Positions 36,105 to 58,411 of a DNA stretch of 64,000 nt are shown in pieces; the first letter of the stretch is position 1, and every line of letters starts with the position of its first letter. The stretch is taken from the NCBI RefSeq assembly GCF_003584565.2, contig NZ_CP031010.1, positions 992,001-1,056,000 on the forward strand, written 5' to 3'. The notes below the pieces were generated by a model. It saw nothing but the letters and a program-made list of their open reading frames with translations, had not been told where the DNA came from and did not search any database. Source of the stretch: Alteromonas sp. RKMC-009. Lineage in GTDB: Bacteria > Pseudomonadota > Gammaproteobacteria > Enterobacterales > Alteromonadaceae. The position numbers and the translations under genes were made by a program.

Positions 36105-37580
36105 ATGGGTGGTGAAGATAGGGATTATCTTTTCGGAAAAACACGGATGCCGCTGCCTGCTAAAGAGGAAATTGCAGAGATGGTCGCTGCAATTATTCCC
36201 TGGTCCGATCCCATTTCCGAAACGCCTGAGGCTCCTTACACCTCTGCTGGCATGCAAGCGTTACTGACACCGGTCAGTGAAAACCCTGTTCACCCTCCGG
36301 AGCAGTCAGTAAGCGAAAATGTTGTCAAAATTCCTCTGAATCCCGGCAAGTTACCGGCAGGATTTACTTATTGGGGGCAGTGGATAGCCCACGACATTAT
36401 TTCACCCACTCATCCGGCACAGAATCACTATTCATCAAGGCAAGTCTCTCCGGCTTTGAATATGGACAGCCTCTACGGTGAATCAGGAAGTTTACCTCCG
36501 CACTGGCTTACCGATGAGCAGGGCTTTTTCAGATTGCCTGATAATGACTGGGATTGTTTGCGCGATAATTGTGGTACGCCCCTGCTGTTCGAACCCCGTA
36601 ACAATGACAATGCGATAATTCTTCAATTTCACAGTCAGTGGCAGCGCATTCACAACCGTATACTGGGAAGCTTATGCCAATCGCCGGAGCGCGAGTTACC
36701 TCACCTCTGCGAGGACGTGTCATGGTTTCGTAAAGCGCAACAAATTACCGTCGCTTTATTTCACCATCTGGTTATTCATGAATGGTTGCCTGCCATTCTG
36801 GACCGGCAGGTTTATGACTATTACTTTTCTGAACAGCCGCCCGCTGTCACCATACTCGGGAGCGACGAATACATATCAAGAGTGCCCTATGAATTCAGTC
36901 ACGCAGCGTTTCGTTTCGGGCACAGTATGGTGCGCGAAACCTATAAACTTCGTGGAAATGACAGTTTCACATTACATGCACTGCTGACTCATCAGGCTGA
37001 AAGAGGAAAGGCCATTCCGCCCATTGACTGGTCATTGTTTTTCGGCGAGTTTGCTCAGGAAGTTCAGCCTATTAACTTAATTGTAGTGTCCGGCATGGGT
37101 GGGATACCGGTTTCCCGTAATATCGCAGAGCGCAATATTGCCGCTGGCATGAAAGCAGAATTGATGACAGTTCAGGAGTGTAAACAGTATCTTGAGGGAG
37201 AATACCCTGAACTGTTTAAGGGCTGCGGATTGACAATGGACGACAGCGAGTCACTGCTGACAGAGTTGAAGATGGATCCGATGAATCAGGCATCACTGTT
37301 TTATACCCTTCACAGGGAAAACCGCCTGCCGCTCTGGCCATTTCTGCTCGCCGAATCTTCCGCTCAGGAGGACAATCCGGGGCACAGAATGGGAAAACTG
37401 GGCAGCGTAATTATCGCTGATGTATTACTGCATGCCATCAATGCCGCGAAAAAACAGTTATTCCCGCTAAAAGAAACACAACAAGAACTCGCCATTTGTC
37501 TGGATCAGTTCAGCAAGCAGTGTGGCGTAGAAAACGCAGCATCTCTTACTATGTCTGCAATTTTATGTAAAAAGGAGTAA
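36105..37580 (+). CDS. animal-type haem peroxidase
   Basis: 491 residues. The animal haem peroxidase (peroxidase-cyclooxygenase) fold is shown by the distal His96 in YWGQWIAHDI, a LQFHSQWQRIHNRI helix (family: LxxxREHNR; the catalytic Arg is not in its normal place) and the proximal His273 in AFRFGHSMVRETY. Such enzymes use H2O2 to oxidise halides or organic substrates. No signal peptide is seen, which is unusual for bacterial members. AAGGA lies before the ATG, three bases behind the anti-sigma-like gene. Substrate unknown. Confidence 0.85.
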   Translation: MGGEDRDYLFGKTRMPLPAKEEIAEMVAAIIPWSDPISETPEAPYTSAGMQALLTPVSENPVHPPEQSVSENVVKIPLNPGKLPAGFTYWGQWIAHDIISPTHPAQNHYSSRQVSPALNMDSLYGESGSLPPHWLTDEQGFFRLPDNDWDCLRDNCGTPLLFEPRNNDNAIILQFHSQWQRIHNRILGSLCQSPERELPHLCEDVSWFRKAQQITVALFHHLVIHEWLPAILDRQVYDYYFSEQPPAVTILGSDEYISRVPYEFSHAAFRFGHSMVRETYKLRGNDSFTLHALLTHQAERGKAIPPIDWSLFFGEFAQEVQPINLIVVSGMGGIPVSRNIAERNIAAGMKAELMTVQECKQYLEGEYPELFKGCGLTMDDSESLLTELKMDPMNQASLFYTLHRENRLPLWPFLLAESSAQEDNPGHRMGKLGSVIIADVLLHAINAAKKQLFPLKETQQELAICLDQFSKQCGVENAASLTMSAILCKKE

Positions 37581-43890: not shown

Positions 43891-45288
43891 ATGGGAAACG
43901 GCTTCGTTAGAAACAATATTAATCAATTTGCCGTAGTATACCGCTTTGTTGATTTTCTGATCATTCAGCTCACTTTACTGGCTGCATGTAATCTGTATGG
44001 TGTGCCCATTGACGTGCACTATCATTTGCTTGGCCTGATCGGAAGTACTACCTACCTGCTGTCTGCAGAACTGTTCTGGCTGTATCGTTCCTGGCGCTCA
44101 GGTACCTCTAAAGAACTGATTTTTTACACCGTTGTAAGCTGGTTTGTCAGTACTGTCGTGGTGCTTTCCTATCTCTTCCTGTCTAAAACGTCTGACGACT
44201 ATTCCCGCGTTGCGTTGTCAGCATGGGTTATCGTTGCCCCTGTTTTCCTGTGCTCCTGGCGTATGTTTATGCGGGCATTTTTGTATCATGTGCGCAAGAA
44301 GGGCTTTAACAGCCGCTCTGTTGGCATTATTGGTATGAATGAGAATGCTGTTGCGCTGGCCAATGAGTTGAAACGTAACCCTCATACAGGTTTCAGGATT
44401 GACGGTATCTTTGATGATCGTGATACAGACCGTCTGGCTATTCCCGATGGTATGAAAGTAGAGGGCTCAATTAACGACGCTATTGCTGCGGTCAGAAATG
44501 GTGAGTTTGATCAAATCTTCATAACATTGCCGATGACAGCCAACAAACGCATTGAACAAATTCTGCATCAGTTAGGTGATACAAACGCTGAAGTTCACTT
44601 TGTTCCGAATTTCTTCATGTACAACATGGTGCATTCCCGTCTTTGTAATATTGGTAATTTACAAACAATCAGTGTGTTCGACACGCCCATGCGCGGAGCA
44701 ACGACTGCGATTAAACGTGCTGAAGATATTTTCCTCGCAACGTGCATTCTGGCTGTCATTGCCGTCCCGATGCTATTTATCGCAGCGGCTGTGAAGCTGA
44801 CATCTAAAGGTCCGGTCATTTTCAAACAGAACCGGTACGGGGTAGACGGGAAGAAAATTAAAGTATGGAAATTCCGTTCTATGACCGTTACTGAAGATGG
44901 TGATAAGGTCACTCAGGCAACCAAAGGCGACGCCCGGATTACCAAAGTCGGTGCATTTTTACGCCGCACCTCGTTGGATGAATTACCCCAGTTTATTAAC
45001 GTTTTGCAGGGCTCAATGTCTGTTGTCGGTCCCCGTCCTCATGCTGTCGCGCACAATGAGATGTACCGCAAAACTGTTAAATATTACATGCTGCGTCACA
45101 GAATCAAGCCGGGTATCACGGGGTGGGCGCAGGTAAATGGCTGGCGTGGTGAAACAGACACCGTTGAAAAAATGCAAATGCGTGTGCAGTACGATCTGGA
45201 ATATATTCGAAACTGGTCTTTGTGGCTCGACTTTAAAATTGTTATCTTTACTTTCTTTAAAGGCTTCGTGGGCAAAAACGTTTATTAA
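43891..45288 (+). CDS. undecaprenyl-phosphate sugar phosphotransferase (WcaJ-like)
   Basis: 465 residues; polyprenyl-glycosylphosphotransferase that loads the first sugar-phosphate, usually glucose, on undecaprenyl phosphate to start an exopolysaccharide unit. Membrane segments in the first 130 residues, a CoA-binding-like domain (about 140-260; SVGIIGMNENAVALANEL), another membrane segment and the catalytic bacterial sugar transferase domain (KVWKFRSMTV; RRTSLDELPQFINVLQGSMSVVGPRPH; HRIKPGITGWAQVNGWRGET). Only 45 bases separate it from the lasso exporter gene, so both are likely on the same transcript from the sigma-54 promoter at 43767. Confidence 0.9.
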   Translation: MGNGFVRNNINQFAVVYRFVDFLIIQLTLLAACNLYGVPIDVHYHLLGLIGSTTYLLSAELFWLYRSWRSGTSKELIFYTVVSWFVSTVVVLSYLFLSKTSDDYSRVALSAWVIVAPVFLCSWRMFMRAFLYHVRKKGFNSRSVGIIGMNENAVALANELKRNPHTGFRIDGIFDDRDTDRLAIPDGMKVEGSINDAIAAVRNGEFDQIFITLPMTANKRIEQILHQLGDTNAEVHFVPNFFMYNMVHSRLCNIGNLQTISVFDTPMRGATTAIKRAEDIFLATCILAVIAVPMLFIAAAVKLTSKGPVIFKQNRYGVDGKKIKVWKFRSMTVTEDGDKVTQATKGDARITKVGAFLRRTSLDELPQFINVLQGSMSVVGPRPHAVAHNEMYRKTVKYYMLRHRIKPGITGWAQVNGWRGETDTVEKMQMRVQYDLEYIRNWSLWLDFKIVIFTFFKGFVGKNVY

Positions 45289-45333: not shown

Positions 45334-47007
45334 ATGTGGACTAAAAGCCTGTACTTTGGCAGGAACATATTTCGGCACTACAGGCTTAGTTTTCTGTTTA
45401 TCTTCGCCATCCTGATGGCAGAAACTGCTCTCAATCTTGCTATTCCTTATGTTGTTGGTAAGCAGTCAGCCGCCGCGGTAAACAGCAGTTTCACTTCTTT
45501 AAACGAACTCACACTTTACCTTGCTGCATGGTGTGTGCTTTTCGCTGTTCAGTCACTTCTGAAATTCTTTTCTACTTATCAGTTGAATGTATTGGGGGCC
45601 AGATTAATGGCCAACCTTAGCTGCAGGTTATATGACCACGTGCAAATCATGCCTATGAAGTATTTTCAGAATACGAATAAGGGTGATGTGTTGTCGCTGC
45701 TTACCTATGATTTAGGAACAGTGAGTTATTTCGTTACCAGTGTTCTGACAACCTTACTCCCCAATATACTGGTGCTGGTGGGAAGTGTGATCATGATGTA
45801 TCTGATTGAACCACTGGTCGCCGTGCTTATCATCACCCTTGTGCCTCTGGTTTATGTCGTGACCAAACTGGTTGGCAGGCAGATTCATCCTTTGTCCAAA
45901 CAAATCGTCCAGAAGCAGGCCGATACTCTGGCGATTGCCAGTGAGAATATCAGCACAATTTCCCTGATAAAGTCGTTTAACCGCGAAGAGGCAGAGTCCA
46001 GCAGGTATAAATCTCATACAGGTGAAGTACTGTCATTAAGAACCAGACAATTTCGTTATCAGGCCATGCTGCCGCCGCTGATTCAGTTTCTCGCCTCAGT
46101 GTGTATTATCACAATTATCGGGGTATGTTTGTTGCAGTTTAAAGCGGGCAAGATTGATGTATCAGATATTGTCAGTTTGCTTCTTTACGGCATGATTTTT
46201 ACACGGCCCGTAAGTGCGCTCGCCGGGTTATACGGACAGACGATGCAGATGAGTGGTGCTTTATCGCGGTTACTCGCTATGCACGCTCAGGAAAGGGAGC
46301 CTACAGAAACAGGGCTTGCTGAACTGGCTGCAGAAAGAGGTGAGGTGCGGTTCGACAATGTCTGTTTTTCCTATCAGGACAATGCAGATATATTGTCTGG
46401 TATTTCTTTTACATTAAAAGCCGGTGAAACGGCGTTGATAACGGGTGAGAACGGAGCAGGTAAATCTACCTTGTTGCACTTGCTCATGCGCTTCTTTGAG
46501 CCGTCCCGGGGGCAGATCAGCATTGACGGACAGGATATATTTAAAGTCACCACCACGTCAGTGCGCGCTTGTATAGGTCATGTCTCTCAGGATGTCGTAT
46601 TATGCAATGGCAGTATTCTTGATAACATTACTTACGGTGTTGAGAAACCAGAACCGGATGATATCGACAAGGTATGCAAATTGTCCGGACTTACTCAGAT
46701 TGTGGCGAAAATGCCGGCAGGAATGAGCACATTAGTCGGCGAGGGCGGTATCAGGCTATCTGGCGGGCAAAGGCAACGTATCGCTCTGGCCAGAGCATTA
46801 CTGAAGCGGCCAAAAATCTTATTGTTCGACGAACCTACATCGATGCTGGATGAGGGAGGAAGGCACCGTTTTAAAGACGAATTTGAACATCTCTTTAAGC
46901 ACTATACGGTATTGATGATTTCCCATGACCCTACAATTGCCGATGTGGCAGACCGGTTGTTTGAATTGCAAAACCGGACATTAACTGAATTGGTAGTAAA
47001 GGAATAA
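45334..47007 (+). CDS. lasso-peptide ABC exporter (type D protein)
   Basis: 557 residues; exporter-type ABC protein with six membrane segments (about 1-320) and a nucleotide-binding domain: Walker A GENGAGKST at 371-379, signature LSGGQRQRIALARA near 475 and Walker B ILLFDEPTS. No C39 peptidase domain, as expected when leader removal is done by separate B1/B2 proteins. It is followed after one base by the B1 gene, so it presumably exports the mature lasso peptide and confers self-immunity. RBS GGAT close to the ATG. Confidence 0.85.
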   Translation: MWTKSLYFGRNIFRHYRLSFLFIFAILMAETALNLAIPYVVGKQSAAAVNSSFTSLNELTLYLAAWCVLFAVQSLLKFFSTYQLNVLGARLMANLSCRLYDHVQIMPMKYFQNTNKGDVLSLLTYDLGTVSYFVTSVLTTLLPNILVLVGSVIMMYLIEPLVAVLIITLVPLVYVVTKLVGRQIHPLSKQIVQKQADTLAIASENISTISLIKSFNREEAESSRYKSHTGEVLSLRTRQFRYQAMLPPLIQFLASVCIITIIGVCLLQFKAGKIDVSDIVSLLLYGMIFTRPVSALAGLYGQTMQMSGALSRLLAMHAQEREPTETGLAELAAERGEVRFDNVCFSYQDNADILSGISFTLKAGETALITGENGAGKSTLLHLLMRFFEPSRGQISIDGQDIFKVTTTSVRACIGHVSQDVVLCNGSILDNITYGVEKPEPDDIDKVCKLSGLTQIVAKMPAGMSTLVGEGGIRLSGGQRQRIALARALLKRPKILLFDEPTSMLDEGGRHRFKDEFEHLFKHYTVLMISHDPTIADVADRLFELQNRTLTELVVKE

Positions 47008-47008
47008 C

Positions 47009-47272
47009 ATGACAGCTTATAAATTGAAAGAAGACGTCCTGGCTCAAAAAGTCGTCGATGAAATGGTGATCCTTGAGCCGGAGAACGGTGAATATTTTAC
47101 AGTTAACGGTGTCGGCACCGAGATGATTTCACTACTTGAAGAGGGCAAAGATGAGGATGATGTGGTATCAGCAATGGTATCCCGTTTTGATGTATCTGAA
47201 GATGAAGTCAGGAAGGACTACGCTGAGCTTGTGGCTTCGCTCCTTGAACAGGGTCTGATTGAGAAAGCGTAA
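47009..47272 (+). CDS. lasso B1 protein, PqqD-like leader-binding (RRE)
   Basis: 87 residues; winged-helix PqqD-like RiPP recognition element that grips the precursor's leader and hands it to the B2 peptidase and cyclase. The LEPENGEYFTVNGVGTEMISLLEEGKD block is typical of PqqD/B1 proteins. Two bases from the next gene. Confidence 0.88.
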   Translation: MTAYKLKEDVLAQKVVDEMVILEPENGEYFTVNGVGTEMISLLEEGKDEDDVVSAMVSRFDVSEDEVRKDYAELVASLLEQGLIEKA

Positions 47273-47274
47273 GC

Positions 47275-47724
47275 ATGATGGCAGATGCTTTCTTTCGATT
47301 ACCGTCGAGCCATAAAAAGCTTTTTATTAAGGCGTGGCTGATGTTTCTGATATGGGACTGGCGTATTTCAAAACAGCCGTATCAAAAATGGAAAGGACAT
47401 ATTTTTACCCCGGATCAATTTCAAAGTACGAAAACGCCAGTTCCTGAATCGTTTATCTCTGTCATTGAGAAGGCGGGCAGGCATCATATCCGGAAAATGA
47501 ATTGCCTGAGAAGGTGCCTGGTGACCATGTCATTACTCAACGACCTTCAAATTTATCCCGGGTTACATTTCGGGGTGAGAGTAACGGCAGGGAAAACGGA
47601 GGCCCACTGCTGGCTGACACATGACGGCATAATCATTAATGATAGTCATGATGTTGTCAGCACTTATACAGAATTGAGAACGAAAAAAGGAAGTGAACAG
47701 GCTTTTCTCAGCGCGTTGACCTAG
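47275..47724 (+). CDS. lasso B2 leader peptidase (transglutaminase-like)
   Basis: 149 residues; cysteine protease of the stand-alone lasso B2 family that cuts the leader from the core. The likely catalytic Cys77 (MNCLRRCLVTMSLL), His111 (EAHCWLTHDG) and an Asp in the following IINDS (Asp123) are in the family order. ATG codons at 47275 and 47278 are both possible. The stop overlaps that of the convergent cyclase gene by four bases. Confidence 0.87.
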   Translation: MMADAFFRLPSSHKKLFIKAWLMFLIWDWRISKQPYQKWKGHIFTPDQFQSTKTPVPESFISVIEKAGRHHIRKMNCLRRCLVTMSLLNDLQIYPGLHFGVRVTAGKTEAHCWLTHDGIIINDSHDVVSTYTELRTKKGSEQAFLSALT

Positions 47725-49409
47725 ACATGAAATGCCTGAATCCAGCGCTGGGTGAGGATGACAAACAACAGGTCCACATGCACACCGCCATGCCGGTTAT
47801 ATACCGCATCATCAAAAGCTTTAAGCACTTTCTTATTGTCAATCAGTCCACGATCGCTCAGATACGGGTGAGACAAACATTCCCGGAGTTCACCAGCATT
47901 TTCTCTGACAAGATTGCCGAAATGATGATCAAAGGTGGTTTTCGTTTGACGCCAGCATACTGAATCCGGTAAGTGGCGGCTCATCGCATTACGTAAAACG
48001 AATTTGGGATAAGGCCCGCGTATCAGTTGCGAGGGTGGCACAGCGAAAGAAAACTCAGCAAGCCGGTAATCGAAGAAAGGATGCTTCACCTCTATATCAA
48101 ACTCGGCAGCGATGGCATCGTAGGATCTGACAGAATTAAACGTGGTAGTTGTTTTGAGCGCAAAGTATCTGGCATGGCTGGCTGGTTCTTTGACAGGATC
48201 AAAGGGATTATGGAACCCGAAAGCTTCGTTGGCCAGCAGGCGTGATTTGTCTGTCAACCAGGCTGGCAGTGGCAGCACACCGGGTGTTTTTCCTTTCAGA
48301 CGTTTGGCCATATTCAACATGGCAGTGGGTACGAAAGGTTTAATGAAGAGTTCACGGGCAACAGATTTAAAAGACATGCCAGTTTCTACGCAGGCTTTGT
48401 ACACTTCAGTTAGAACACCCCATTCCCCTTCACGTAAACGCTGGGTGTATGCACTGGCATGACCCCAGCAAATTTCGTCGCCCCCGTTTCCGGTAAACAG
48501 TTTACTGATACCCATTTGCTTTAAATCTGAGAGTTCATCCCGGTAACGGGGAGACAGAACAATACCCGGATGATCAAAATGTGGCGGGTAAAGACTTAGA
48601 AAATTACGATATCGTGATTTGTCCACATCCTGAAAATGAAACTCTTCTAACTGAAGATATTCGCGCATGTCACGGATCAATTCAGTCTCATCTGATTTAG
48701 GATCGTGCTTATAGTAATGCGAAACCGCAATACAGCGGCGTTTATGCTGCTTCTGATACTGGTGTACAAGAGAGGTAACCGAGGTAGAGTCCATCCCGCC
48801 GCTCATCTGGCAGCCCGCTACTTCTGTCGTTCCAGTGTATTCTTCCACCACAGAAGTAAAGAGCTCGCGAAAGGCAGTTGCATACTCATCATCACTGGTG
48901 AGTCTGATCCGGTTTTCCGGATCAATATCCCAATATTGATGACTTGTTACCTTATCCTTACTGCATCGCAGGTAGTGGCCTGCCGGCAATATCTGCAGCC
49001 CTGAATAAATACTTAGCTGAGGGACTGGCTGACCGGCAAGCCATCCGGCTATGGCAGTGTCTGAAAGTACCGGCTTTAGTCCGGATACATCCAGCGCATG
49101 GGCAGCACTGTTACTGATGACGGTGAAATCAGGTGTAGACACGAAGTACAGAGTAGTCAGAGAAAGCGCGTCCGTACCGATGATAACAGCATCATTTTCA
49201 GACTGTATAAAAAACGGACAGTTTATAGATGCTAACTTTTCTGCAGTCCGCTCATCTGCCTGAACGGGTAATTTTGTGTCACCACTGTTTGAAAAACCAC
49301 TGAGTCTGCCGTTGCGAACAAAGCAATGGGTAAAAAACTGGCTTTCAAGCCCGCCGGACTGAAGCGGACCCGGGGACTTATGGCTGTATATGAAGAGAAA
49401 TGGTTTCAC
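47721..49409 (-). CDS. lasso cyclase (asparagine-synthetase-like, type C)
   Basis: 562 residues; an AsnB homologue whose amidotransferase half has lost the N-terminal Cys2 nucleophile (it starts MKPFLFIYSH), while the ATP-binding SGGMDSTS at 203-210 and FTGNGGDE are kept. In lasso pathways this enzyme adenylates the Asp/Glu side chain so that the core's N-terminal amine closes the ring. It faces the exporter-B1-B2 genes instead of following them, and starts with GTG preceded by GGAAC. Together with B1, B2 and the precursor it identifies the cluster. Confidence 0.88.
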   Translation of the reverse strand: MKPFLFIYSHKSPGPLQSGGLESQFFTHCFVRNGRLSGFSNSGDTKLPVQADERTAEKLASINCPFFIQSENDAVIIGTDALSLTTLYFVSTPDFTVISNSAAHALDVSGLKPVLSDTAIAGWLAGQPVPQLSIYSGLQILPAGHYLRCSKDKVTSHQYWDIDPENRIRLTSDDEYATAFRELFTSVVEEYTGTTEVAGCQMSGGMDSTSVTSLVHQYQKQHKRRCIAVSHYYKHDPKSDETELIRDMREYLQLEEFHFQDVDKSRYRNFLSLYPPHFDHPGIVLSPRYRDELSDLKQMGISKLFTGNGGDEICWGHASAYTQRLREGEWGVLTEVYKACVETGMSFKSVARELFIKPFVPTAMLNMAKRLKGKTPGVLPLPAWLTDKSRLLANEAFGFHNPFDPVKEPASHARYFALKTTTTFNSVRSYDAIAAEFDIEVKHPFFDYRLAEFSFAVPPSQLIRGPYPKFVLRNAMSRHLPDSVCWRQTKTTFDHHFGNLVRENAGELRECLSHPYLSDRGLIDNKKVLKAFDDAVYNRHGGVHVDLLFVILTQRWIQAFHV

Positions 49410-49503
49410 AAAGTTCCGTCTTGTTGCGTAAATGCACCATTACTGAGCGATCAGACATAGTAACAGGTTCTGCTGAGTATGCCTGAATGCTAACATTAAT
49501 AAA

Positions 49504-49581
49504 TTCAGGAGAAAAATTAACATTGCCAATTTAACTTCATAATTTATAATCTGTTTTCTGCATCAGTTCGGGAGAAAAATT
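49504..49581 (+). repeat. pair of 15-base direct repeats, possible activator site
   Basis: TTCAGGAGAAAAATT at 49504-49518 and TTCGGGAGAAAAATT at 49567-49581 differ by one base and start 63 bases apart, six helical turns. They lie about 130-205 bases upstream of the sigma-54 element, the usual place of enhancer-binding-protein sites. Confidence 0.5.
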
Positions 49582-49709
49582 GGTGCAGCAGATATGATCT
49601 AAAAGGATCTGTCTGAATTTTTTACAGATCTGTTTGTAAATATCATTCATTAACATCAAATTCACATCATTATTTTTTAAATAATTGAAAATACTCATTT
49701 TTTTAAATG

Positions 49710-49725
49710 TGGCGTGATGCTTGCT
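49710..49725 (+). promoter_or_regulatory. sigma-54 promoter of PEP-CTERM/lasso precursor operon
   Basis: TGGCGTGATGCTTGCT matches TGGCACGNNNNTTGCW in all but two positions; GG (49711-49712) and GC (49723-49724) are exactly 10 bases apart. Transcription would begin near 49736, giving a leader of about 50 bases before the ATG at 49786. Confidence 0.78.
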
Positions 49726-49785
49726 TTTCTATTGTGTACAACAATAATTTATACCACGTAGTTTTATACTTACAAGGAATATGGA

Positions 49786-50433
49786 ATGAAAAAGTCGGCT
49801 TTACTTGGGGCAGCAGCAGCCCTGCTTTTAAGCGGTCAAGCTTCAGCTAGCTACATCAGCACTGTCACCGGCGCTGACATGGCAGGCATGGAAGTGACTG
49901 TTACTTACTCTGACCTGAGCACTGAGACGTTAACTTGGGGTGTAACCTCAAGCGACGCGACTGTACCTTATATGGAAGGTTACAGCGGCGGCGTTACCGG
50001 TACTTCGTGGTCTTTAACACAAACTGGCGATACTATCGCTGATCAGCCTCCTGGTGCCGCATATGTTTACGGTGCATGGACTTTCACCTATGACGGTACT
50101 GGCCTGAGCATTGCATCTGTTTATGTTGATGCATATGCTGCTGATGTTGTTTTTGATACTGTTTCAGGCGATGCGAGTGCTAATGGTTCTCTTGCTGGTC
50201 GTGAACTGGTTACAGACGGTTATGTGTTAGATGCTTCATATTCAATGAATATTGAAGATGAGCTTTTTGGTGGTTTAACACTGAGTGGCGTTAGCGGCAA
50301 CCTGATGGACGCTGCAGGCAGCTTCCAGTTTGTTGTTGATACAGACAAAGTGGCTGTACCAGCACCTGCAACTCTGGGTATCTTTGCCGCTGCTCTAGGA
50401 TTTATGGGCTTCAACCGCCGTAAAAAGGCATAA
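49786..50433 (+). CDS. PEP-CTERM protein
   Basis: 215 residues; signal peptide (MKKSALLGAAAALLLSGQASA), a beta-rich Ser/Thr-rich body, and a C-terminal sorting signal VPAPATLGIFAAALGFMG followed by FNRRKKA: a PEP-like motif (here PAP), a membrane helix and a basic end, the exosortase recognition signal. Such proteins are processed by an exosortase and go to the cell surface or polysaccharide matrix. No exosortase gene lies in the window. The lasso precursor gene starts 11 bases after its stop, so both are expressed from the sigma-54 promoter. Confidence 0.88.
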   Translation: MKKSALLGAAAALLLSGQASASYISTVTGADMAGMEVTVTYSDLSTETLTWGVTSSDATVPYMEGYSGGVTGTSWSLTQTGDTIADQPPGAAYVYGAWTFTYDGTGLSIASVYVDAYAADVVFDTVSGDASANGSLAGRELVTDGYVLDASYSMNIEDELFGGLTLSGVSGNLMDAAGSFQFVVDTDKVAVPAPATLGIFAAALGFMGFNRRKKA

Positions 50434-50444
50434 GGATAGAAAAC

Positions 50445-50600
50445 ATGAAAACTTTTGAAAATGCTTCTGAAAGCAAACAAGAGTATGTAAAGCCGGAACT
50501 GCAAAAAGTAGGTACCCTGGCTGAACTGACTGAAGGTTTCGCAGGTAGCATTCCTGACGAACAAGGCGGTCAGACTAAGCGTAACCCATTCCAGGGTTAA
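50445..50600 (+). CDS. lasso peptide precursor
   Basis: 51 residues, MKTFENASESKQEYVKPELQ..., with AAGGA eight bases before the ATG. The leader carries YVKPELQKVGTLAELT (residues 14-29), an exact YxxPxLxxxGxxxxxT motif, the hallmark of proteobacterial lasso precursors, with the required Thr at the second last leader position (Thr29, Glu30). The core therefore starts at Gly31 (GFAGSIPDE...) and is 21 residues, ending RNPFQG. Gly31 could close a ring on Asp38 (8 residues) or Glu39 (9 residues). It is too short for typical gene finders. A strong terminator follows. Confidence 0.88.
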   Translation: MKTFENASESKQEYVKPELQKVGTLAELTEGFAGSIPDEQGGQTKRNPFQG

Positions 50601-50611
50601 GCTGATCGGAT

Positions 50612-50643
50612 AAAAAAAGGCCAGTCATACGACTGGCCTTTTT
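50612..50643. terminator. terminator after lasso precursor
   Basis: AAAAAGGCCAGTC / GACTGGCCTTTTT hairpin with ATAC loop; A/T runs on both sides also serve the convergent kinase-like gene. Confidence 0.9.
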
Positions 50644-50691
50644 GTTTTGCTCTGAGCATGTATCCGTACCCATCACTCGAGCGCTGCGTCT

Positions 50692-51657
50692 CTACCCGTT
50701 CTTCGCTGAAATCCATTCATTAATTTGCCTGCAAACTTCAGTCAGTCGTTCAAGTCCATCAGGATATTTTATTTCATAAACCGGAAGCGTATTTATCAAC
50801 GTAGCAAGTGAGCCAACCCGTTGTTTGTCGATTCCCAGCGCTTTATAAGCGTCACCCAGCATGCTGTTTTGCATGAGTAATATGAGCGCTTTACTATTGG
50901 CTATGCGTGTTATTTCAACAGGTCCGGTATAATTCTCAGCTCTGTTCAGAAAATACAATGCACTTATTTGAGCGGGTTTATCTTCTGACATCTGCCCGGT
51001 GAAAGTGATTTCATTTTTTGCGAAGCGATCGTGTACTTTTTTAACTGTTGTTTTATCGAATGATGCACTGTCTGCAAAATACTCTGTGCTATCTGGCCAC
51101 AGACGAACTTTAGGCCAGCTGGGATATACTGAAAAAGCATTGCCGTCAGAAAACAGGGCTGCCATGTCATCAGTCGTGAGAGTAAATCCTTCGTGAGTTA
51201 ATGCTGTGGTTAATGTCGACTTCCCGGTCCTGCTGGGAGCAAGAAACAGATGCGCCTGTCCTTCTTTTACCAGCGTATTAGCATGCAGGCAAAGGTGACC
51301 TTTTTGTTCAAGAAAAACAGATAAACCGATAGTTTGCAGGTAGTGAGCAGGTCCTGTGCCGTTAGCATGCCAGTCTACTTTAATACCTTCTTCAGTGAAT
51401 TCGAATGCGCCTTTGCCTTCGCAATCAATCATCAGCACCTGCCGGTCATTTTCCCGGTGAAGCTCTATAACTGACTTATACCTTTCACCTTTGTCGGTCA
51501 GTTTCCATATCGCACTTTCTTGTGATGGTGATTCGACTTTGCCACTACTGAGCCGCAGTGCGTATTTGTTCTTTATTGCCGGCTTTGAATCCGTAAATAA
51601 ACTCACCCCGTGCAAGGGCACACTGCAAAGTGAATAAAGCGCCGTATTGTTATCCAT
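50692..51657 (-). CDS. HprK-like kinase of the lasso cluster
   Basis: 321 residues; C-terminal half resembles HPr kinase/phosphorylase: P-loop APSRTGKSTLT at about 140-150, a following LTTDDMAAL, and HANTLV ahead of the P-loop. Such kinases recur in lasso clusters; in the paeninodin type they phosphorylate the C-terminal Ser of the precursor. Here the core ends in Gly, so that reaction is not possible; Ser35 and Thr44 of the precursor are other candidates, or the protein may have a different substrate. Convergent with the precursor gene, divergent from the TonB receptor gene. Confidence 0.8.
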   Translation of the reverse strand: MDNNTALYSLCSVPLHGVSLFTDSKPAIKNKYALRLSSGKVESPSQESAIWKLTDKGERYKSVIELHRENDRQVLMIDCEGKGAFEFTEEGIKVDWHANGTGPAHYLQTIGLSVFLEQKGHLCLHANTLVKEGQAHLFLAPSRTGKSTLTTALTHEGFTLTTDDMAALFSDGNAFSVYPSWPKVRLWPDSTEYFADSASFDKTTVKKVHDRFAKNEITFTGQMSEDKPAQISALYFLNRAENYTGPVEITRIANSKALILLMQNSMLGDAYKALGIDKQRVGSLATLINTLPVYEIKYPDGLERLTEVCRQINEWISAKNG

Positions 51658-51921
51658 TCCATTTCTACTTCAGATATTGAATTGCCGCAACACACTTAGC
51701 AGTGCTACTCCGTAAAGCGCGCATCAATGTGCTTTTGATTGATTGTACAGTAATTAAATCAGGAATGATCCGCTGAAGCCACAGGAAGGAAGCTTTCTTG
51801 CAGATCCGGGCGTCAAGTTTTCGTAATCAAACAGTCAACGAATCAAAACAACCTTGTCACATTCCCTGCGTACGCTCTTCGCGATTTACTTTTATCAAAA
51901 GAATAAGCGCAAGGAAAACAC

Positions 51922-54282
51922 ATGAAACACACTCTCACTCGTAAGAAGCATATACTGGCGATGTCTGTACTGTCAGCAATCGCAGCAAGCACCTCAAATG
52001 CGTTTGCCGAAGAGATGGCTGCAGAGTCACGTGAAGGCGAAGTTATTGAAGAAATTCAGGTTATCGGCCGCAGCGTGTCTTATGCCAACAACGCCACCGA
52101 CGAAAACATGAAACAGCAGCAAACAGCAATGACCAGCGTGCTGGCGACAATTGATAACCTGCCGGGTGTTCTGATTAACGAAGGCGATACATTCGGTGCC
52201 GATGACTGGTCTACCAGTATTTCCATCCGTGGTTTTCAGGTGGATCTGGATCAGCAACAAATCGGTATGACGGTAGACGGTATCGCTAACGGTAATTCCA
52301 ACTACGGTGGCGGCTCGAAGGCCAACCGTTATATGGATACAGAAAACCTGCGGGCGGTCGAGGTGTCTCAGGGAACGGCTGATATCGCTTCCCGTTCAAA
52401 CGAAGCACTGGGCGGTACGCTTAACTTCACAACCATTAACCCCGGTACAGAAGAAGGTCTTATCCTGAGTGGTACGCTGGCTGAATATGAAGGTCAGAAA
52501 ATCTATGCCCGTTATGAAACCGGAGAGCTGGTAAAAGACACCTACGCATGGGTGAGTGTATCGTCACAGGACAGTTCAGACTGGATGGATCAGGCGGCTG
52601 AAAATACCCGTGACCACTTTGCAGCCAAAGTTATCAGCTATGTGAGTGGTATCGATTTTACCGGCTATGCCTCTTACGACGATACTCACGAAGACAACTA
52701 TCAGCGCATTTATGGCAACGAACAATTTGCCCAAAATCCGGAATGGGACCAGCTTACCAGTGACTGGTCGGGTGTGCCTTATCAGGATCAGGCATATCGC
52801 CGGGGATGGTCAACACTGCGTGAGAACTTTTTCACCTATCTGAAAGCTGATATGTCGGTAGGCGCAGTGGATTTCAGTGCCAACGTTTATTACCACAATC
52901 AGGAAGGGCGGGGCGACTGGTTGCCACCTTACGTGGTCGATGTTACAGACGACGGGCTGAATCAGCCTAATTCTGAACTGGTTTCGGGTAACACGGTATA
53001 CGGCGGTTCTCAGTTAGGTCAGCTTTTCTATGTGTCTCCTGAAGGCGCGGCGTTATCGCCTGCAACAGGCTGTGTCAGCTCGCTTAAATTCCCTTATGGC
53101 GGCAGTTCTGCCGAATACGACCCTGCCTGTTACGACAGCAGCGCAGTGCCGGTTGGCTCTTACCGTCATACACATTACAAAAAGGAACGCACCGGCTTCA
53201 ACGCTGACATGATCTGGAATACGCAGATTGGCGATATGGACAACGTGTTACGTGCAGGCTTGTGGTACGAAGATTACAACCGCGAAGAATCACGTGACTG
53301 GCACAAGATCATCGATTCGAAAACCAGTTTCTATTATGACCACATTCCTTACTGGGTACAGTACAGCCGTGAATTCCCGGTTGAAACCATAATGTATTAC
53401 CTTGAAGACGAGCTGGACTTGGGCGTAGCAAAAGTACGCCTTGGAGCTAAGCAATTCAATGTAGACGTAAAGAAAAACGATTTGTTTGATGCCAATAACA
53501 ACCAAGCTGTATCGTCTGATTCTGATGTGCTGTTCTCTGCCGGTTTTGTTGCGCCTCTGGCTGACAATCTGGAATTCTTCGGTGGCTTCGCGCAAAACTA
53601 CGCGGCAATCAAAGATGCAGTGCTTGAGCGTGATGACGCTGACTTGTCGGTAATTGAACCTGAAACGGCTGACAACATTGACCTGGGTGTGCGCTACTCA
53701 ACCCCGGGCTTTAACGCCAGCCTGACGTACTACACAATTAAATTTGATAACCGCATTCGTTTTGTTAGTGCTGAACAGTCTGAAGGGATCGACTTCCTTG
53801 AAGAAGGTGCCGGTGGTTATGTTAATGACGGTGGTGTTGAGTCAGACGGCATTGAAGCATCTGCACAATGGCAGGCGACGGAATACCTGAGCGTGTATGC
53901 ATCGTATACCTACAACAATTCTGAATATGCAGAATCCCGTTATGAAGATATTGAAGGCAATACTGTTCTTGGCACCGCAAAAGACATGGCTGTTCTGAGC
54001 CTGGACTATGCGAAAAGCAATTACATTGCCGGTCTGAGCACAAAGTATGTCGGCCCCCGGTTTATGGATCAGGCGAATCTGACAGAAGTTGAGGAGTATG
54101 TGGTCAGCGATTTCTACGCAGGCGTTGTACTGGATAACGTGGCAAGTGGCATTAAATCACTGGATGTACGCTTAACGGTGAATAACCTTTTTGACGAAAG
54201 CTATCTGGGCACAGTGGTTGCCGGTGCAGGCTGGATTGGTGCACCAAGAACAGCCGCGATAAATGTGAAAGCGGCATTTTAA
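51922..54282 (+). CDS. TonB-dependent outer-membrane receptor
   Basis: 786 residues; signal peptide (ending SNAFA), a TonB-box-like EEIQVIG, plug domain (about 50-165) and 22-strand barrel ending in the aromatic ...INVKAAF. Lasso clusters of Sphingomonads and relatives often carry a TonB receptor for uptake of the peptide or of an iron ligand. Its place 260 bases from the kinase gene suggests the same link, but its ligand is not visible in the sequence. AAGGAAAA lies before the ATG. Confidence 0.88.
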   Translation: MKHTLTRKKHILAMSVLSAIAASTSNAFAEEMAAESREGEVIEEIQVIGRSVSYANNATDENMKQQQTAMTSVLATIDNLPGVLINEGDTFGADDWSTSISIRGFQVDLDQQQIGMTVDGIANGNSNYGGGSKANRYMDTENLRAVEVSQGTADIASRSNEALGGTLNFTTINPGTEEGLILSGTLAEYEGQKIYARYETGELVKDTYAWVSVSSQDSSDWMDQAAENTRDHFAAKVISYVSGIDFTGYASYDDTHEDNYQRIYGNEQFAQNPEWDQLTSDWSGVPYQDQAYRRGWSTLRENFFTYLKADMSVGAVDFSANVYYHNQEGRGDWLPPYVVDVTDDGLNQPNSELVSGNTVYGGSQLGQLFYVSPEGAALSPATGCVSSLKFPYGGSSAEYDPACYDSSAVPVGSYRHTHYKKERTGFNADMIWNTQIGDMDNVLRAGLWYEDYNREESRDWHKIIDSKTSFYYDHIPYWVQYSREFPVETIMYYLEDELDLGVAKVRLGAKQFNVDVKKNDLFDANNNQAVSSDSDVLFSAGFVAPLADNLEFFGGFAQNYAAIKDAVLERDDADLSVIEPETADNIDLGVRYSTPGFNASLTYYTIKFDNRIRFVSAEQSEGIDFLEEGAGGYVNDGGVESDGIEASAQWQATEYLSVYASYTYNNSEYAESRYEDIEGNTVLGTAKDMAVLSLDYAKSNYIAGLSTKYVGPRFMDQANLTEVEEYVVSDFYAGVVLDNVASGIKSLDVRLTVNNLFDESYLGTVVAGAGWIGAPRTAAINVKAAF

Positions 54283-54386: not shown

Positions 54387-57236
54387 TCAGCACATCCGTG
54401 CAACAGCACTCAGCAAGTCTTCTGCGGAAAAAGGTTTGCTTATATAATCGTCCATCCCGGCCGCTTCACAGCGTTCTCTGTCACCTTTCATGGCATTGGC
54501 GGTAAGAGCAATTACCGGCACATTCAGGTATTTCTCGCCGGCGTCTCCGGCGCGAATACGCCGGGTTGTTTCAAATCCGTCCATTTCAGGCATGTGACAA
54601 TCCATCAGGATCACATCAAAAGTCAGCTTCATTCTGTTCAACGCTTCCAGCGCTTCTTTACCGTTGCGGGCTGTCATGGTTTTATGCTGGCTCAGGTGTT
54701 CTCTGGCAATAAGCTGGTTTATTTCATTGTCTTCGACGATGAGAATTTTGGCGCAGAAGTCTTTAGCCGGAAGCAGAGGGGCAGGGGCCTGAGAGTCGTT
54801 GTGGCTTTGTACCGGTTGTGTACCTTCAGCATTACCCTGAAGCATCACAAAGCTGAAACAGCTGCCACGGCCCTTCTCGCTGGTGACGGTTAAATCTCCG
54901 CCCATCAACTGACATAACTGCCTGCTGATGGATAATCCCAGCCCGGTACCACCAAATTTACGGGTTGTGGACACGTCTTCCTGGCTGAATACTTCAAAAA
55001 TGCTGTCCAGATTCTCAGGCGCAATACCTATACCGGTATCTTCAACATCTCCCCGTAAGGTCCATTTCTGTTTATCACCAACAGTCAGAGCAAGACGCAG
55101 AGTAATGGTACCTTCTGATGTAAATTTCACTGCATTGCTTAGCAGATTACCCAGTACCTGTCGTAATCTTACCGGATCGCCGGTGACCATAGTCTGACCA
55201 TTCAGATCACTTTCCAGTTTCAGTGTCAGTCCTTTCTCACCACAACTGATACAGAACTGGTCGTATATGGTTTTTATCAGTAATTCCAGATTAAACGGAA
55301 TGGCTTCCAGATTGAGCTGTCCCGCCTCGATTTTTGAGAAATCGAGTATATCATCCACAATGTGCTGCAAGTTCTTCAGACTGTCTTTTGCCAAATCGAC
55401 ATAACGTTTCTGTGTACTGTCCAGCGGCGTCTTATTCACCAGTTGCAATGCACCAGATACACCATGCAGCGGGGTGCGGACTTCATGACTCATGCTGGCA
55501 AGGAAGCCGGATTTCAAACGGGCAGATTCTTCTGCCTTTAAGCGGGCGTCTTCAAGGTACTGCCGTGTTCGCTCCCGGTCTGTAACATCCTGAAAGAAAG
55601 CCACGAAATGCGTTAACTTATCCTCAGTGTAGACGGGTGTCAGGATCAACTGGTTGTAGAAAACAGAACCGTCTTTCTTGTGACAAATCAGCATTTCGTC
55701 AAAGGCATGACCATGTCTGAGGGCATATTTGATTTTATGCAGCTGGCTTGCTTCAGCTTTCATCTGATTTAACATCAGGAACGTTTGTCCCATGACTTCA
55801 TCTTCATCAAAGCCGGTGATCAGACTAAAATGAGGATTAACGTAGATGGCTGGGAAGCCTGCTTCCTGAGCATCAACAATGAGTATCGACACGGTGGCAG
55901 ATTTCATGGCATGACTGATTACGTTTATCTGATTTTCCAGCACCCGCCGCTGAGTCAGGTCATTGCCCACCAGAATACTGCCAACCTGCTTACGCTCATC
56001 GTCTATCAGAGGAAGCACCCGCCAGCTTAACGTGACCGGCCTCTTGTCACTTAAAGAGGCGTAGTGGCCGGTAAGAGACTGTTTGTCAGCAGATAAGTCA
56101 GCTTTTATATCTCTGAGCGTGTTGTCTGATAAATCATAATAGAGGGCGTATCGCTTATAAGCGCGGTTCGCCAGAATGTTCTCACCGGTTTCGTCCTGTA
56201 CAACCAGGATCTCTTCCAGTGAATCCAGCACATTAGAAAATTGTCTGTTGGACAGGGAGATAGTAGATAAATTAATGATTAACTGATTAAACGCTGTCCG
56301 GATTTCGTTAAGTTCCGCAGGTTCATTTTCACTGCCGGTGCTGGTTCCCCCTTTCTTCCGGCTGGTACTGCGCTGAATATCATCGTGAAGCTGGCGCAGA
56401 GTTACTGCGCTCAGTTTTGCAGCGTGACTGGATGCGTAAACACTTACGATCACAGCAAAGGCCAGGGTGATCAAAATTGCCGGAATTAACCAGAGTACAT
56501 TAGAGTAAGCTTCCAGCGCCGGCGCCTGACTGATAAGAGTCAGTCCCCGCCATTGCTCTGATTCAGACTCCCAACCGGAATAGGCTGCATGGTCAAATAG
56601 ACTGCCTGGTCTGAACATCGCCGGTTTATTTGAATAAAGGATCTTCCCTTCATTGTCGAGAATTAACTGGTTTGCATCACTGTCCCGTTGATAAATTAAT
56701 GCCTGCAGAGCCGGAATATGGAGTACCAGCGCACCTTCTGCTGAATCCGCGAGTAATACCGGTACCGCGATAATTGCACCGTCACCGGAAATATTATTAT
56801 AAGGTTTCGATTCGTTCAGCACCGTTTCCTGCCACGCATTGGCCATCGATGCCGGCACCTGACCTTCCCAGTTGTTTGTGATGAGCGGTTCACCATTAAA
56901 CTGAAACAATCCGAGACTGAAAGATCGGGCACGGGTAAAGCGCAAAGACTCAAAAAAGATGGGCAGGTAATTCTGCCGCTGCTGAATATCAATAAAACTG
57001 TTTATCAGCAGGTCGTTAGCCGCGATACCCTCCATTAACTGCTGCGTGCTGTCGAGGGTAAATGTGAGATCTGCCTTGAGGTGTGAGATATAAGTGCGCT
57101 GTTCATTCGCCACCTGCTTCTGTGCCACATAAAAAATACACAGGCACAAGATTATGCTGACAGCAATCAGTGCGACTAAAAGCCGTGGGAGTATGGTTTG
57201 CTGCAGTTGGGTATACAGCGAGGGGCGGGTACTCAC
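54387..57236 (-). CDS. hybrid sensor histidine kinase with receiver
   Basis: 949 residues: membrane segment (about 20-38), periplasmic sensor (about 39-245), second membrane segment (about 247-268), two PAS domains (about 330-430 and 435-555), HisKA with His584 in ASMSHEVRTPLHGV, HATPase_c (DPVRLRQVLGNLLSNAVKFT; GGTGLGLSIS) and a C-terminal receiver (KILIVEDNEINQ; VILMDCHMPEMDG; DDYISKPF). It overlaps the upstream binding-protein gene by four bases, so the two probably form a ligand-sensing unit. No separate output protein gene is adjacent. Confidence 0.92.
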   Translation of the reverse strand: MSTRPSLYTQLQQTILPRLLVALIAVSIILCLCIFYVAQKQVANEQRTYISHLKADLTFTLDSTQQLMEGIAANDLLINSFIDIQQRQNYLPIFFESLRFTRARSFSLGLFQFNGEPLITNNWEGQVPASMANAWQETVLNESKPYNNISGDGAIIAVPVLLADSAEGALVLHIPALQALIYQRDSDANQLILDNEGKILYSNKPAMFRPGSLFDHAAYSGWESESEQWRGLTLISQAPALEAYSNVLWLIPAILITLAFAVIVSVYASSHAAKLSAVTLRQLHDDIQRSTSRKKGGTSTGSENEPAELNEIRTAFNQLIINLSTISLSNRQFSNVLDSLEEILVVQDETGENILANRAYKRYALYYDLSDNTLRDIKADLSADKQSLTGHYASLSDKRPVTLSWRVLPLIDDERKQVGSILVGNDLTQRRVLENQINVISHAMKSATVSILIVDAQEAGFPAIYVNPHFSLITGFDEDEVMGQTFLMLNQMKAEASQLHKIKYALRHGHAFDEMLICHKKDGSVFYNQLILTPVYTEDKLTHFVAFFQDVTDRERTRQYLEDARLKAEESARLKSGFLASMSHEVRTPLHGVSGALQLVNKTPLDSTQKRYVDLAKDSLKNLQHIVDDILDFSKIEAGQLNLEAIPFNLELLIKTIYDQFCISCGEKGLTLKLESDLNGQTMVTGDPVRLRQVLGNLLSNAVKFTSEGTITLRLALTVGDKQKWTLRGDVEDTGIGIAPENLDSIFEVFSQEDVSTTRKFGGTGLGLSISRQLCQLMGGDLTVTSEKGRGSCFSFVMLQGNAEGTQPVQSHNDSQAPAPLLPAKDFCAKILIVEDNEINQLIAREHLSQHKTMTARNGKEALEALNRMKLTFDVILMDCHMPEMDGFETTRRIRAGDAGEKYLNVPVIALTANAMKGDRERCEAAGMDDYISKPFSAEDLLSAVARMC

Positions 57237-58411
57237 CGGATATCTGAAACCGGGATAAGGTGTCCGTCTTCGTTAAACATCGCCATAAAATAATCCTCCG
57301 CCATTAATGCGTCATGCATATTTTCCGTAAACGCCGGCGCATATTGTTTCACTGCGCCTTGCAACACCGGCAAGTTCTCAAGGGCCTGACGAACAGCATC
57401 AGCTTCAACAGAGCCGGCTTTTTTCACTGCAGCAGTCAAAATATGGACCAGGTCATAGCTATGAGCAAGGCCCACAACAGCCGGAATTGCCTGTGGAGCA
57501 ATATCGTCATAACGTTGGCGGTACGCTTTCAGTAAATAAGCAGAGCGGCTATTGTTCTGATATAAAAAGCTGAAAGTTTGAATGACAGACAAGTCGAGTT
57601 TAGATAGATCTGTCAGACCGACTTCCGCGACAAAATCACCACCTGCCAGACCCCAGTGAGCAATTAACGGCATTTCTGCCGCTTCCAGTTTGAGCAGAGC
57701 TTTGCTGACAACAGCTGCTTCAGGCGCATTAGAGACAAGAATAATAGCCCCGGCACCAGACTGGATAATCGCCGACATCTCATTGGTAAAATCTGTCTGG
57801 CGCCAGTTTATCCATTGTGTGCTCACGATTTTCAGGCCCTGATGTTCAGCCGCTTTAGATAATGATGTTAAATTTGAACGACCCCAGCCTGTACGCTCAA
57901 GTACCAGGGCAATTTCTTTAACTCCCCGTTCTCTGGCTGTTTTAATCAGAACTTCTCCGGCCTGCTCATCACGGATAGAGACACGAAAAACGTTATTTGG
58001 CGTGTAATGATTATCGACCAGTGATGTACCGGCGGCCCAGGGGCTCAGGAACAAGAGGTTGTTCTTATGCACTGCATCCAGTTCGGCCACAGCTACCGGT
58101 GTATGTACACCGCCAAAGATAGCCAGTAAATCCTGCCGCTTTGCCAGTTGTTCGACGTTATACACGCCGCGGGCCGGGTTTCCACGGTGATCCGTTGTGA
58201 CCAGTGAGAGTTGGTGACCAAGAACGCCGCCATTGTTGTTAACTTCCGCGATGGCAATTTCCATTCCCCGGCGTATCGCGGTTCCGCCTTCCACGGCAAC
58301 AGCACTGAGATCGGCATCAAGTGCCAGTACCAGCGGCGCTTTTTCCTGTGCCACGGCCAGGCTGCCGGCACCTGTCAGAGTAAGCAGAAAGATTAAGAGA
58401 AATCTGGTCAT
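57233..58411 (-). CDS. periplasmic binding protein (branched-chain/urea/amide type) partnered with the kinase
   Basis: 392 residues; signal peptide (MTRFLLIFLLTLTGAGSLAVA) and a Peripla_BP_6 fold (GTAIRRGMEIAIAEVNNNGGVLGH; LVTTDHRGNPARGV; FGGVHTPVAVAEL; HYTPNNVFRVSIRDEQAGEVL). No ABC permease or ATPase gene is near, and it is translationally coupled to the hybrid kinase; it is likely the ligand-presenting component of the sensor. Ligand unknown. Confidence 0.82.
   Translation of the reverse strand: MTRFLLIFLLTLTGAGSLAVAQEKAPLVLALDADLSAVAVEGGTAIRRGMEIAIAEVNNNGGVLGHQLSLVTTDHRGNPARGVYNVEQLAKRQDLLAIFGGVHTPVAVAELDAVHKNNLLFLSPWAAGTSLVDNHYTPNNVFRVSIRDEQAGEVLIKTARERGVKEIALVLERTGWGRSNLTSLSKAAEHQGLKIVSTQWINWRQTDFTNEMSAIIQSGAGAIILVSNAPEAAVVSKALLKLEAAEMPLIAHWGLAGGDFVAEVGLTDLSKLDLSVIQTFSFLYQNNSRSAYLLKAYRQRYDDIAPQAIPAVVGLAHSYDLVHILTAAVKKAGSVEADAVRQALENLPVLQGAVKQYAPAFTENMHDALMAEDYFMAMFNEDGHLIPVSDIR

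Follow-up and report, generated by a model that had tools for sequence, protein, structure and literature searches.

Gene Content of the Lasso Peptide Locus

Analyses of a 64,000-nucleotide stretch of Alteromonas sp. RKMC-009 (assembly GCF_003584565.2, contig NZ_CP031010.1, positions 992,001 to 1,056,000, forward strand; the whole stretch is hereafter the window, whose numbering is used throughout) identified a gene cluster for a lasso peptide with a core that is nearly invariant across genera. The precursor gene is apparently paired with a gene for a PEP-CTERM protein, close to a gene for the start of exopolysaccharide synthesis. A preliminary description of this DNA had named an ATP-binding cassette (ABC) exporter, a PqqD-like B1 protein, a B2 peptidase, an AsnB-like cyclase, an HprK-like kinase and a TonB receptor, and translation and profile scans located each of these where it had been placed. 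The two conserved companions of the cluster, the PEP-CTERM gene and the polysaccharide gene, were absent from that description. The features of the locus are as follows:

43891-45288, + strand: undecaprenyl-phosphate glucose phosphotransferase (WcaJ type; exopolysaccharide start enzyme); TIGR03023 548.7 bits, cut-off 410.75
45334-47007, + strand: ABC exporter (D); PF00664, PF00005
47009-47272, + strand: B1, PqqD-type leader-binding protein; PF05402 65 bits, cut-off 23.4
47275-47724, + strand: B2, transglutaminase-fold leader peptidase; NF033537 lasso_biosyn_B2 53.2 bits, cut-off 33
47721-49409, - strand: C, Asn-synthase-type macrolactam cyclase; PF00733 131.5 bits, cut-off 21; SGGMDS motif, no Cys at position 2
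49523-49550, + strand: promoter-like site 5' of the PEP-CTERM/precursor pair; agrees with the consensus at 11 of 12 bases
49786-50433, + strand: PEP-CTERM protein gene; PF07589 20.8 bits, cut-off 20.7; TIGR02595 20.9 bits, cut-off 16
50445-50534, + strand: precursor leader, codons 1-30; YxxPxLxxxGxxxxxT with Thr at -2; NF033521
50535-50600, + strand: precursor core GFAGSIPDEQGGQTKRNPFQG, 21 residues, and stop codon; from translation
50614-50643, + strand: intrinsic-terminator-like hairpin directly 3' of the precursor; 13-pair stem, T tail
50692-51657, - strand: K, HprK/PEPCK-fold kinase; His, GK[ST] and DD motif
51922-54282, + strand: TonB-dependent receptor, a neighbor not conserved with the system (2 of 36 loci); profile match
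54387-58411, - strand: genes of a hybrid histidine kinase (54387-57236) and a periplasmic binding protein (57233-58411), neighbors in a few close relatives

The locus was compared with a survey set of 36 loci (the window, L015-L048 and L013 in our numbering), which hold 42 precursors in all, and with the results of a protein search that identified 301 precursors at E 0.01 or better, the best 120 of which were listed. Homologous precursors beside B1, B2 and C were looked for in relatives and were found. The precursor of the window (50445-50600, + strand, 51 codons) scored 23.9 bits against NF033521 lasso_leader_L3 (cut-off 19). Its leader, YVKPELQKVGTLAELT, is an exact fit to YxxPxLxxxGxxxxxT, as the preliminary description had it, and is the single match to that motif in the six frames of the whole window, where chance would give 0.06 (19 matches in total from 300 mononucleotide shuffles). 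The motif was also present in 40 of the 42 locus precursors when either Leu or Ile was accepted at the sixth place, the other two having Phe there, and Thr(-2) was replaced by Ala in one of the 120 proteins listed of the 301. The core of the window precursor begins with Gly, and the 42 locus precursors and the 120 listed homologues have Asp8 and Glu9 without exception. The precursor had been called overlooked, a word that does not hold for relatives, as 12 of the listed homologues are named "lasso RiPP family leader peptide-containing protein" (RiPP, ribosomally synthesized and post-translationally modified peptide) by NCBI.

The biosynthetic proteins were similarly consistent. B1 scored 57.2 bits against lasso_PqqD_Strm, under the cut-off of 70 for that model, in addition to its match to PF05402. 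Residues Cys77, His111 and Asp123 of B2, which we take to be its catalytic triad, were kept in 25/25 homologues. The absence of the glutaminase Cys from the cyclase, reported earlier for the window protein, extended to all 29 family members, each of which also had SGG[ML]DS (the start codons of these 29 were chosen mechanically). Every sequence test open to us came out in favor of lasso biosynthesis, and the locus almost certainly represents a lasso peptide pathway of class II with split B1 and B2. By analogy with known pathways, B1 would bind the precursor leader, B2 would cleave after Thr(-2)-Glu(-1), the cyclase would link Gly1 to Asp8 or Glu9 (the ring size that known pathways lead us to expect) around the threaded tail, and export of the mature peptide would fall to the ABC protein.

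Distribution of the Locus in Related Bacteria

A search of 60 relatives found matches in eight genomes at E 0.1 or better, six of them (the window genome included) at 3.3e-16 or better and all from a single genus. When named genomes were scanned with core patterns, 34 loci were obtained, from Alteromonas, Paraglaciecola, Aestuariibacter, Marisediminitalea, Aliiglaciecola, Glaciecola, Catenovulum, Colwellia, Pseudocolwellia, Reinekea and several metagenome-assembled genomes (MAGs). Among the 36 surveyed loci, a cyclase of at least 450 residues was present in 29, B1 in 25, B2 in 25, the kinase K in 31 and the phosphotransferase in 28 (two as partial frames); several of these gaps reflect contig ends or second copies. 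One MAG has its cyclase ~35 kb from the PEP-CTERM/precursor pair on the same contig. The TonB receptor was found in 2/36 loci and the hybrid histidine kinase in 3/36 (both at E 1e-80), and we rejected both as core parts of the system, including the receptor that the preliminary description had counted in the pathway.

Two further observations concern single loci. The ABC exporter of L013 (12277-13964) was split into two open frames of 70 and 486 residues. L099 (8778-8951; genome G899, another gammaproteobacterium) is an ordinary lasso cluster with a related kinase and a different core that ends in Thr, and no PEP-CTERM gene was found in the stretch of it that was read.

Conservation of the Core Peptide

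Without exception, the 42 locus precursors and the 120 listed proteins fitted a 21-residue core consensus, G-[FY]-[ASQ]-G-S-[IVL]-P-D-E-x-G-G-x-[TA]-K-[RQ]-N-P-F-x-G. Mean pairwise identity among 43 precursors (the 42 locus precursors, all of which passed the codon-analysis pattern, and L093) was 0.89 in the core versus 0.67 in the 17-residue leader motif. The partner proteins had mean identities of 0.40 for C (29 cyclases), 0.34 for B2, 0.39 for B1, 0.41 for K and 0.37 for the PEP-CTERM protein. Identities at core codon positions 1, 2 and 3 were 0.92, 0.98 and 0.44, respectively, in a set whose selection pattern itself fixes several core columns. As third codon positions were only 44% identical, it is the protein and not the DNA that has been held constant, and DNA-level conservation was ruled out as the cause of the constant core.

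A small control, for which 269 genomes of the phylum were scanned with the lasso leader model (six distinct precursors, including that of the window), suggested the opposite trend for other lasso precursors, with the core varying more than the leader: leader and core identities were 1.00 and 0.75-0.88 in one genus and 0.76 and 0.29 in one family. Because the locus scan had itself used core patterns, the search was repeated with the cyclase as the query. Of 295 genomes of the family, 18 matched at E 1e-30, and all 18 had a PEP-CTERM gene and a same-family core adjacent. This repeat covered one bacterial family with one query and scored candidates up to a cap in each genome, and the core-pattern scan had already included most of the matching genomes. 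On this result we rejected the proposal that the conservation of the core is an artefact of ascertainment.

Together, these data indicated that this is probably a class II lasso pathway devoted to one near-invariant product. A lasso peptide that stays constant while its leader, its enzymes and its partner protein diverge is a good case for the study of native function. Several genomes (L022, L023, L025, L020 and L048) had two or three precursors with the same or nearly the same core; in these the copy adjacent to the kinase lacked a PEP-CTERM gene directly upstream.

The PEP-CTERM Partner and the Exosortase

The PEP-CTERM gene encodes a 215-residue product, and its stop codon is 11 nt ahead of the precursor start. 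As a terminator-like hairpin follows the precursor, the two genes look like one transcription unit, of which the precursor is the apparent second gene. Terminator-like sites numbered four in the region versus 2.5 expected. The promoter-like site upstream is weak evidence, since fewer such sites were observed (two) than chance predicts (4.5). The protein cleared PF07589 only narrowly, and TIGR02595 by a wider score, and has a VPAPATL motif and a basic tail. Its structural model (predicted local distance difference test score, pLDDT, 87) has an N-terminal helix resembling a signal peptide, a beta-rich domain and a C-terminal helix.

A PEP-CTERM gene was directly 5' of 38 of the 42 precursors, and this adjacency was also seen in tandem copies (L020, L022 and L023). 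An extra pair in Alteromonas lipolytica (L010/L026) has neither B nor C genes around it and sits on a different contig from the full cluster. The window genome encodes a single exosortase (TIGR02602 162.5 bits, cut-off 105.55), which adjoins a TIGR03013 glycosyltransferase (XrtA/PEP-CTERM type), and has nine PEP-CTERM matches over the cut-off, the protein of the locus included. Exosortase matches were found in 17/18 genomes with the cyclase versus 191/277 others (Fisher p 0.014, kinship ignored). If the pairing is functional, it names a partner and a place, the cell surface and its exopolysaccharide, for the function of the peptide.

The Kinase and the Predicted Site of Phosphorylation

An HprK-type kinase was present in the cluster of the window, as in most of the surveyed loci. 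In the 29 K proteins analyzed, the first of the first two P-loop glycines was Ala in 29/29 and the second was seldom Gly. Every core of the 42 locus precursors and the 120 listed proteins had Ser at residue 5 and ended in Gly; none ended in Ser, the residue used by most known lasso kinases and the mark of the C-terminally phosphorylated lasso peptides. A C-terminal Ser of this peptide thus cannot be what K acts upon. We suggest that K would phosphorylate the precursor, and because the core ends in Gly the invariant ring residue Ser5 would be the most plausible site. For the window core, the calculated mass is 2172.035 Da after loss of water and 2252.001 Da in the phosphorylated form. PMC10368454 describes a lasso kinase that targets Ser3 of the ring in a peptide lacking a C-terminal Ser.

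Polysaccharide Genes and Other Neighbors

The phosphotransferase homologue was near the lasso locus in 28/36 loci, and other genes of sugar metabolism were found near the unit in some relatives: glycosyltransferases in L009, L013, L014 and L021, a sugar-nucleotide epimerase/dehydratase in L009, and sulfotransferases in L009 and L034. Two of the neighboring proteins scanned in relatives had no Pfam match.

Members of a single nucleotidyltransferase-like cluster were observed ~1-5 kb past the precursor in nine loci (L033, L036, L037, L038, L040, L042, L045, L046 and L047), in eight of them downstream of the phosphotransferase. In L045 the nucleotidyltransferase-like protein was present, and the kinase and phosphotransferase were not found. 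Six of the nine proteins were tested against PF14907 and all six passed.

Elsewhere in the window, a TPR-CHAT protein is encoded at 38076-41012 (CHAT 144.9 bits), and just ahead of it is a match to animal-type haem peroxidase at 36105-37580.

Possible Roles of the Peptide

What most lasso peptides do for their producers is poorly known. A role in phenanthrene use has been proposed for a lasso peptide of Sphingomonas (PMC11006600). For the peptide studied here, the pairing with a PEP-CTERM gene, the nearby exopolysaccharide start gene and the frozen core together led us to favor, at about an even chance, a conserved surface or exopolysaccharide role for the mature peptide, as a matrix part, a regulator or a signal, with one unchanging target. 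The peptide would accordingly seem not to be a rapidly diversifying antibiotic. A more specific version of this role, which we regard as speculative and rather improbable, is that the peptide is a built-in part of the surface, phosphorylated at Ser5, sugar-modified in some lineages by the neighboring nucleotidyltransferase, and held on or linked to exopolysaccharide with its PEP-CTERM partner. If that were true, the lasso peptide would serve the extracellular matrix as a conserved component, structural or regulatory, and would to our knowledge be the first of its kind.

Several observations weigh against the favored explanation as a whole, from the pathway and its kinase to the surface role. 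The phosphotransferase was not found in 8/36 loci, some of which are short contigs, and four of the 42 precursors (one each in L022, L023, L025 and L048) had no PEP-CTERM gene directly upstream, these four being extra copies in genomes that also hold pairs. The structure search returned no significant solved relative for the modeled PEP-CTERM fold. The exosortase of the window genome is ~2.3 Mb from the lasso locus, and the cyclase-bearing genome G532 (99% complete) was not among the genomes listed with an exosortase match. K was not found in L018, L031 and L045 despite ~10 kb of downstream sequence, hence phosphorylation cannot be essential everywhere. An antibiotic with a single conserved target would likewise freeze the core. 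Finally, the peptide, its knot, its phosphate and any phenotype are predictions from sequence.

Most known lasso peptides have been studied for antimicrobial activity, and a conventional antibacterial peptide is the first alternative to consider. In this case the core would hit an essential, invariant target in competitors, and the TonB receptor, ABC protein and kinase would serve uptake, immunity and tailoring. An ABC exporter is indeed encoded, the TonB receptor adjoins the locus in the window and in L016, and in PMC8125074 antimicrobial activity was inferred, without testing, for a Colwellia MAG with a lasso cluster. However, the receptor was found in only 2/36 loci, the core was conserved above the leader and the enzymes, which is the reverse of the small control set, and an antibacterial function leaves the pairing with PEP-CTERM and polysaccharide genes unexplained. 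We therefore consider it unlikely, as we do a second alternative of similar standing, in which different species would share the invariant peptide as an extracellular cue that is read by a two-component system and controls exopolysaccharide or the PEP-CTERM protein. A shared receptor would suit an invariant core, and a hybrid histidine kinase and periplasmic binding protein adjoin the locus in the window, L015 and L016; LuxQ was the third-best NCBIfam match of the kinase, at 335 bits far under the cut-off of 1200. Yet with the thresholds used (E 1e-80 for the kinase) no such sensor pair was found next to the remaining 33 loci, one weaker histidine-kinase match beyond the exporter being seen in L014, and no receptor gene was observed to accompany the system consistently.

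That the PEP-CTERM and polysaccharide genes are accidental passengers in a shared genomic slot, with the core frozen for reasons other than the surface, seems to us still less probable: gene order does vary outside the unit, the cyclase is distant from the pair in one genome, and the distances of all seven gene families, that of the polysaccharide gene included, correlate pairwise (r 0.47-0.78) as co-inheritance would give, but the adjacency of PEP-CTERM gene and precursor persists in changed surroundings, such as those of the isolated pair of Alteromonas lipolytica, and is kept in the tandem copies. The surface or exopolysaccharide role is the one we prefer.

Comparison with Known Systems

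With the split B1/B2 lasso peptides (class II, no cysteine) this family shares B1, B2, the cyclase and the ABC exporter, the motif in the leader, and a core that starts with Gly and is acidic at positions 8 and 9; it differs in its near-invariant core across genera, the apparent two-gene unit with PEP-CTERM and the nearby polysaccharide gene. Astexin-type clusters have a conserved TonB receptor and an isopeptidase, whereas here the receptor is rare, and ten proteins scanned between 43.9 and 57.2 kb had no peptidase-family Pfam match except the transglutaminase fold of B2.

Paeninodin/PadeK, ThcoK, SyanK and pseudomycoidin/PsmK have an HprK-type kinase in or beside the cluster, as here, and the reviews PMC9266682 and PMC8498205 indicate that these kinases target a C-terminal Ser, with which no core seen in the window family ends. 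The pseudomycoidin cluster also has a nucleotidyltransferase-like protein, PsmN, as do nine loci related to the window. Another parallel is BsfA/BsfK of Bradymonas: in the portion of PMC10368454 available, the kinase works without a C-terminal Ser in the core, a ring Ser is the site, and BsfK shares the His, GK[ST] and DD residues with K. In contrast, the residue is Ser3 there and Ser5 in the window family, the P-loop glycines are altered in K, and that portion of the paper makes no mention of a PEP-CTERM partner. The PEP-CTERM/exosortase systems have in common with the window genome a PEP-CTERM tail and one genomic exosortase beside a TIGR03013 glycosyltransferase, and differ in that a RiPP precursor is the constant neighbor here.

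The preliminary description had proposed that the product is probably new. Six core fragments had no match in the literature text searched (subscription literature and lasso databases were outside that search), and the best match of the precursor to solved structures was weak (plant receptor repeats, E 0.015), on which grounds the product looks undescribed. The proposal was too narrow as a reading of one strain, since many genera have a core that is identical or almost so. The literature searched yielded no lasso family that combines a near-invariant core with a PEP-CTERM partner gene and a polysaccharide gene close by; two of its papers mention both lasso peptides and PEP-CTERM, once each. 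The pathway type is already known, and the novelty would lie in how little the core varies and in the genes that accompany its precursor.

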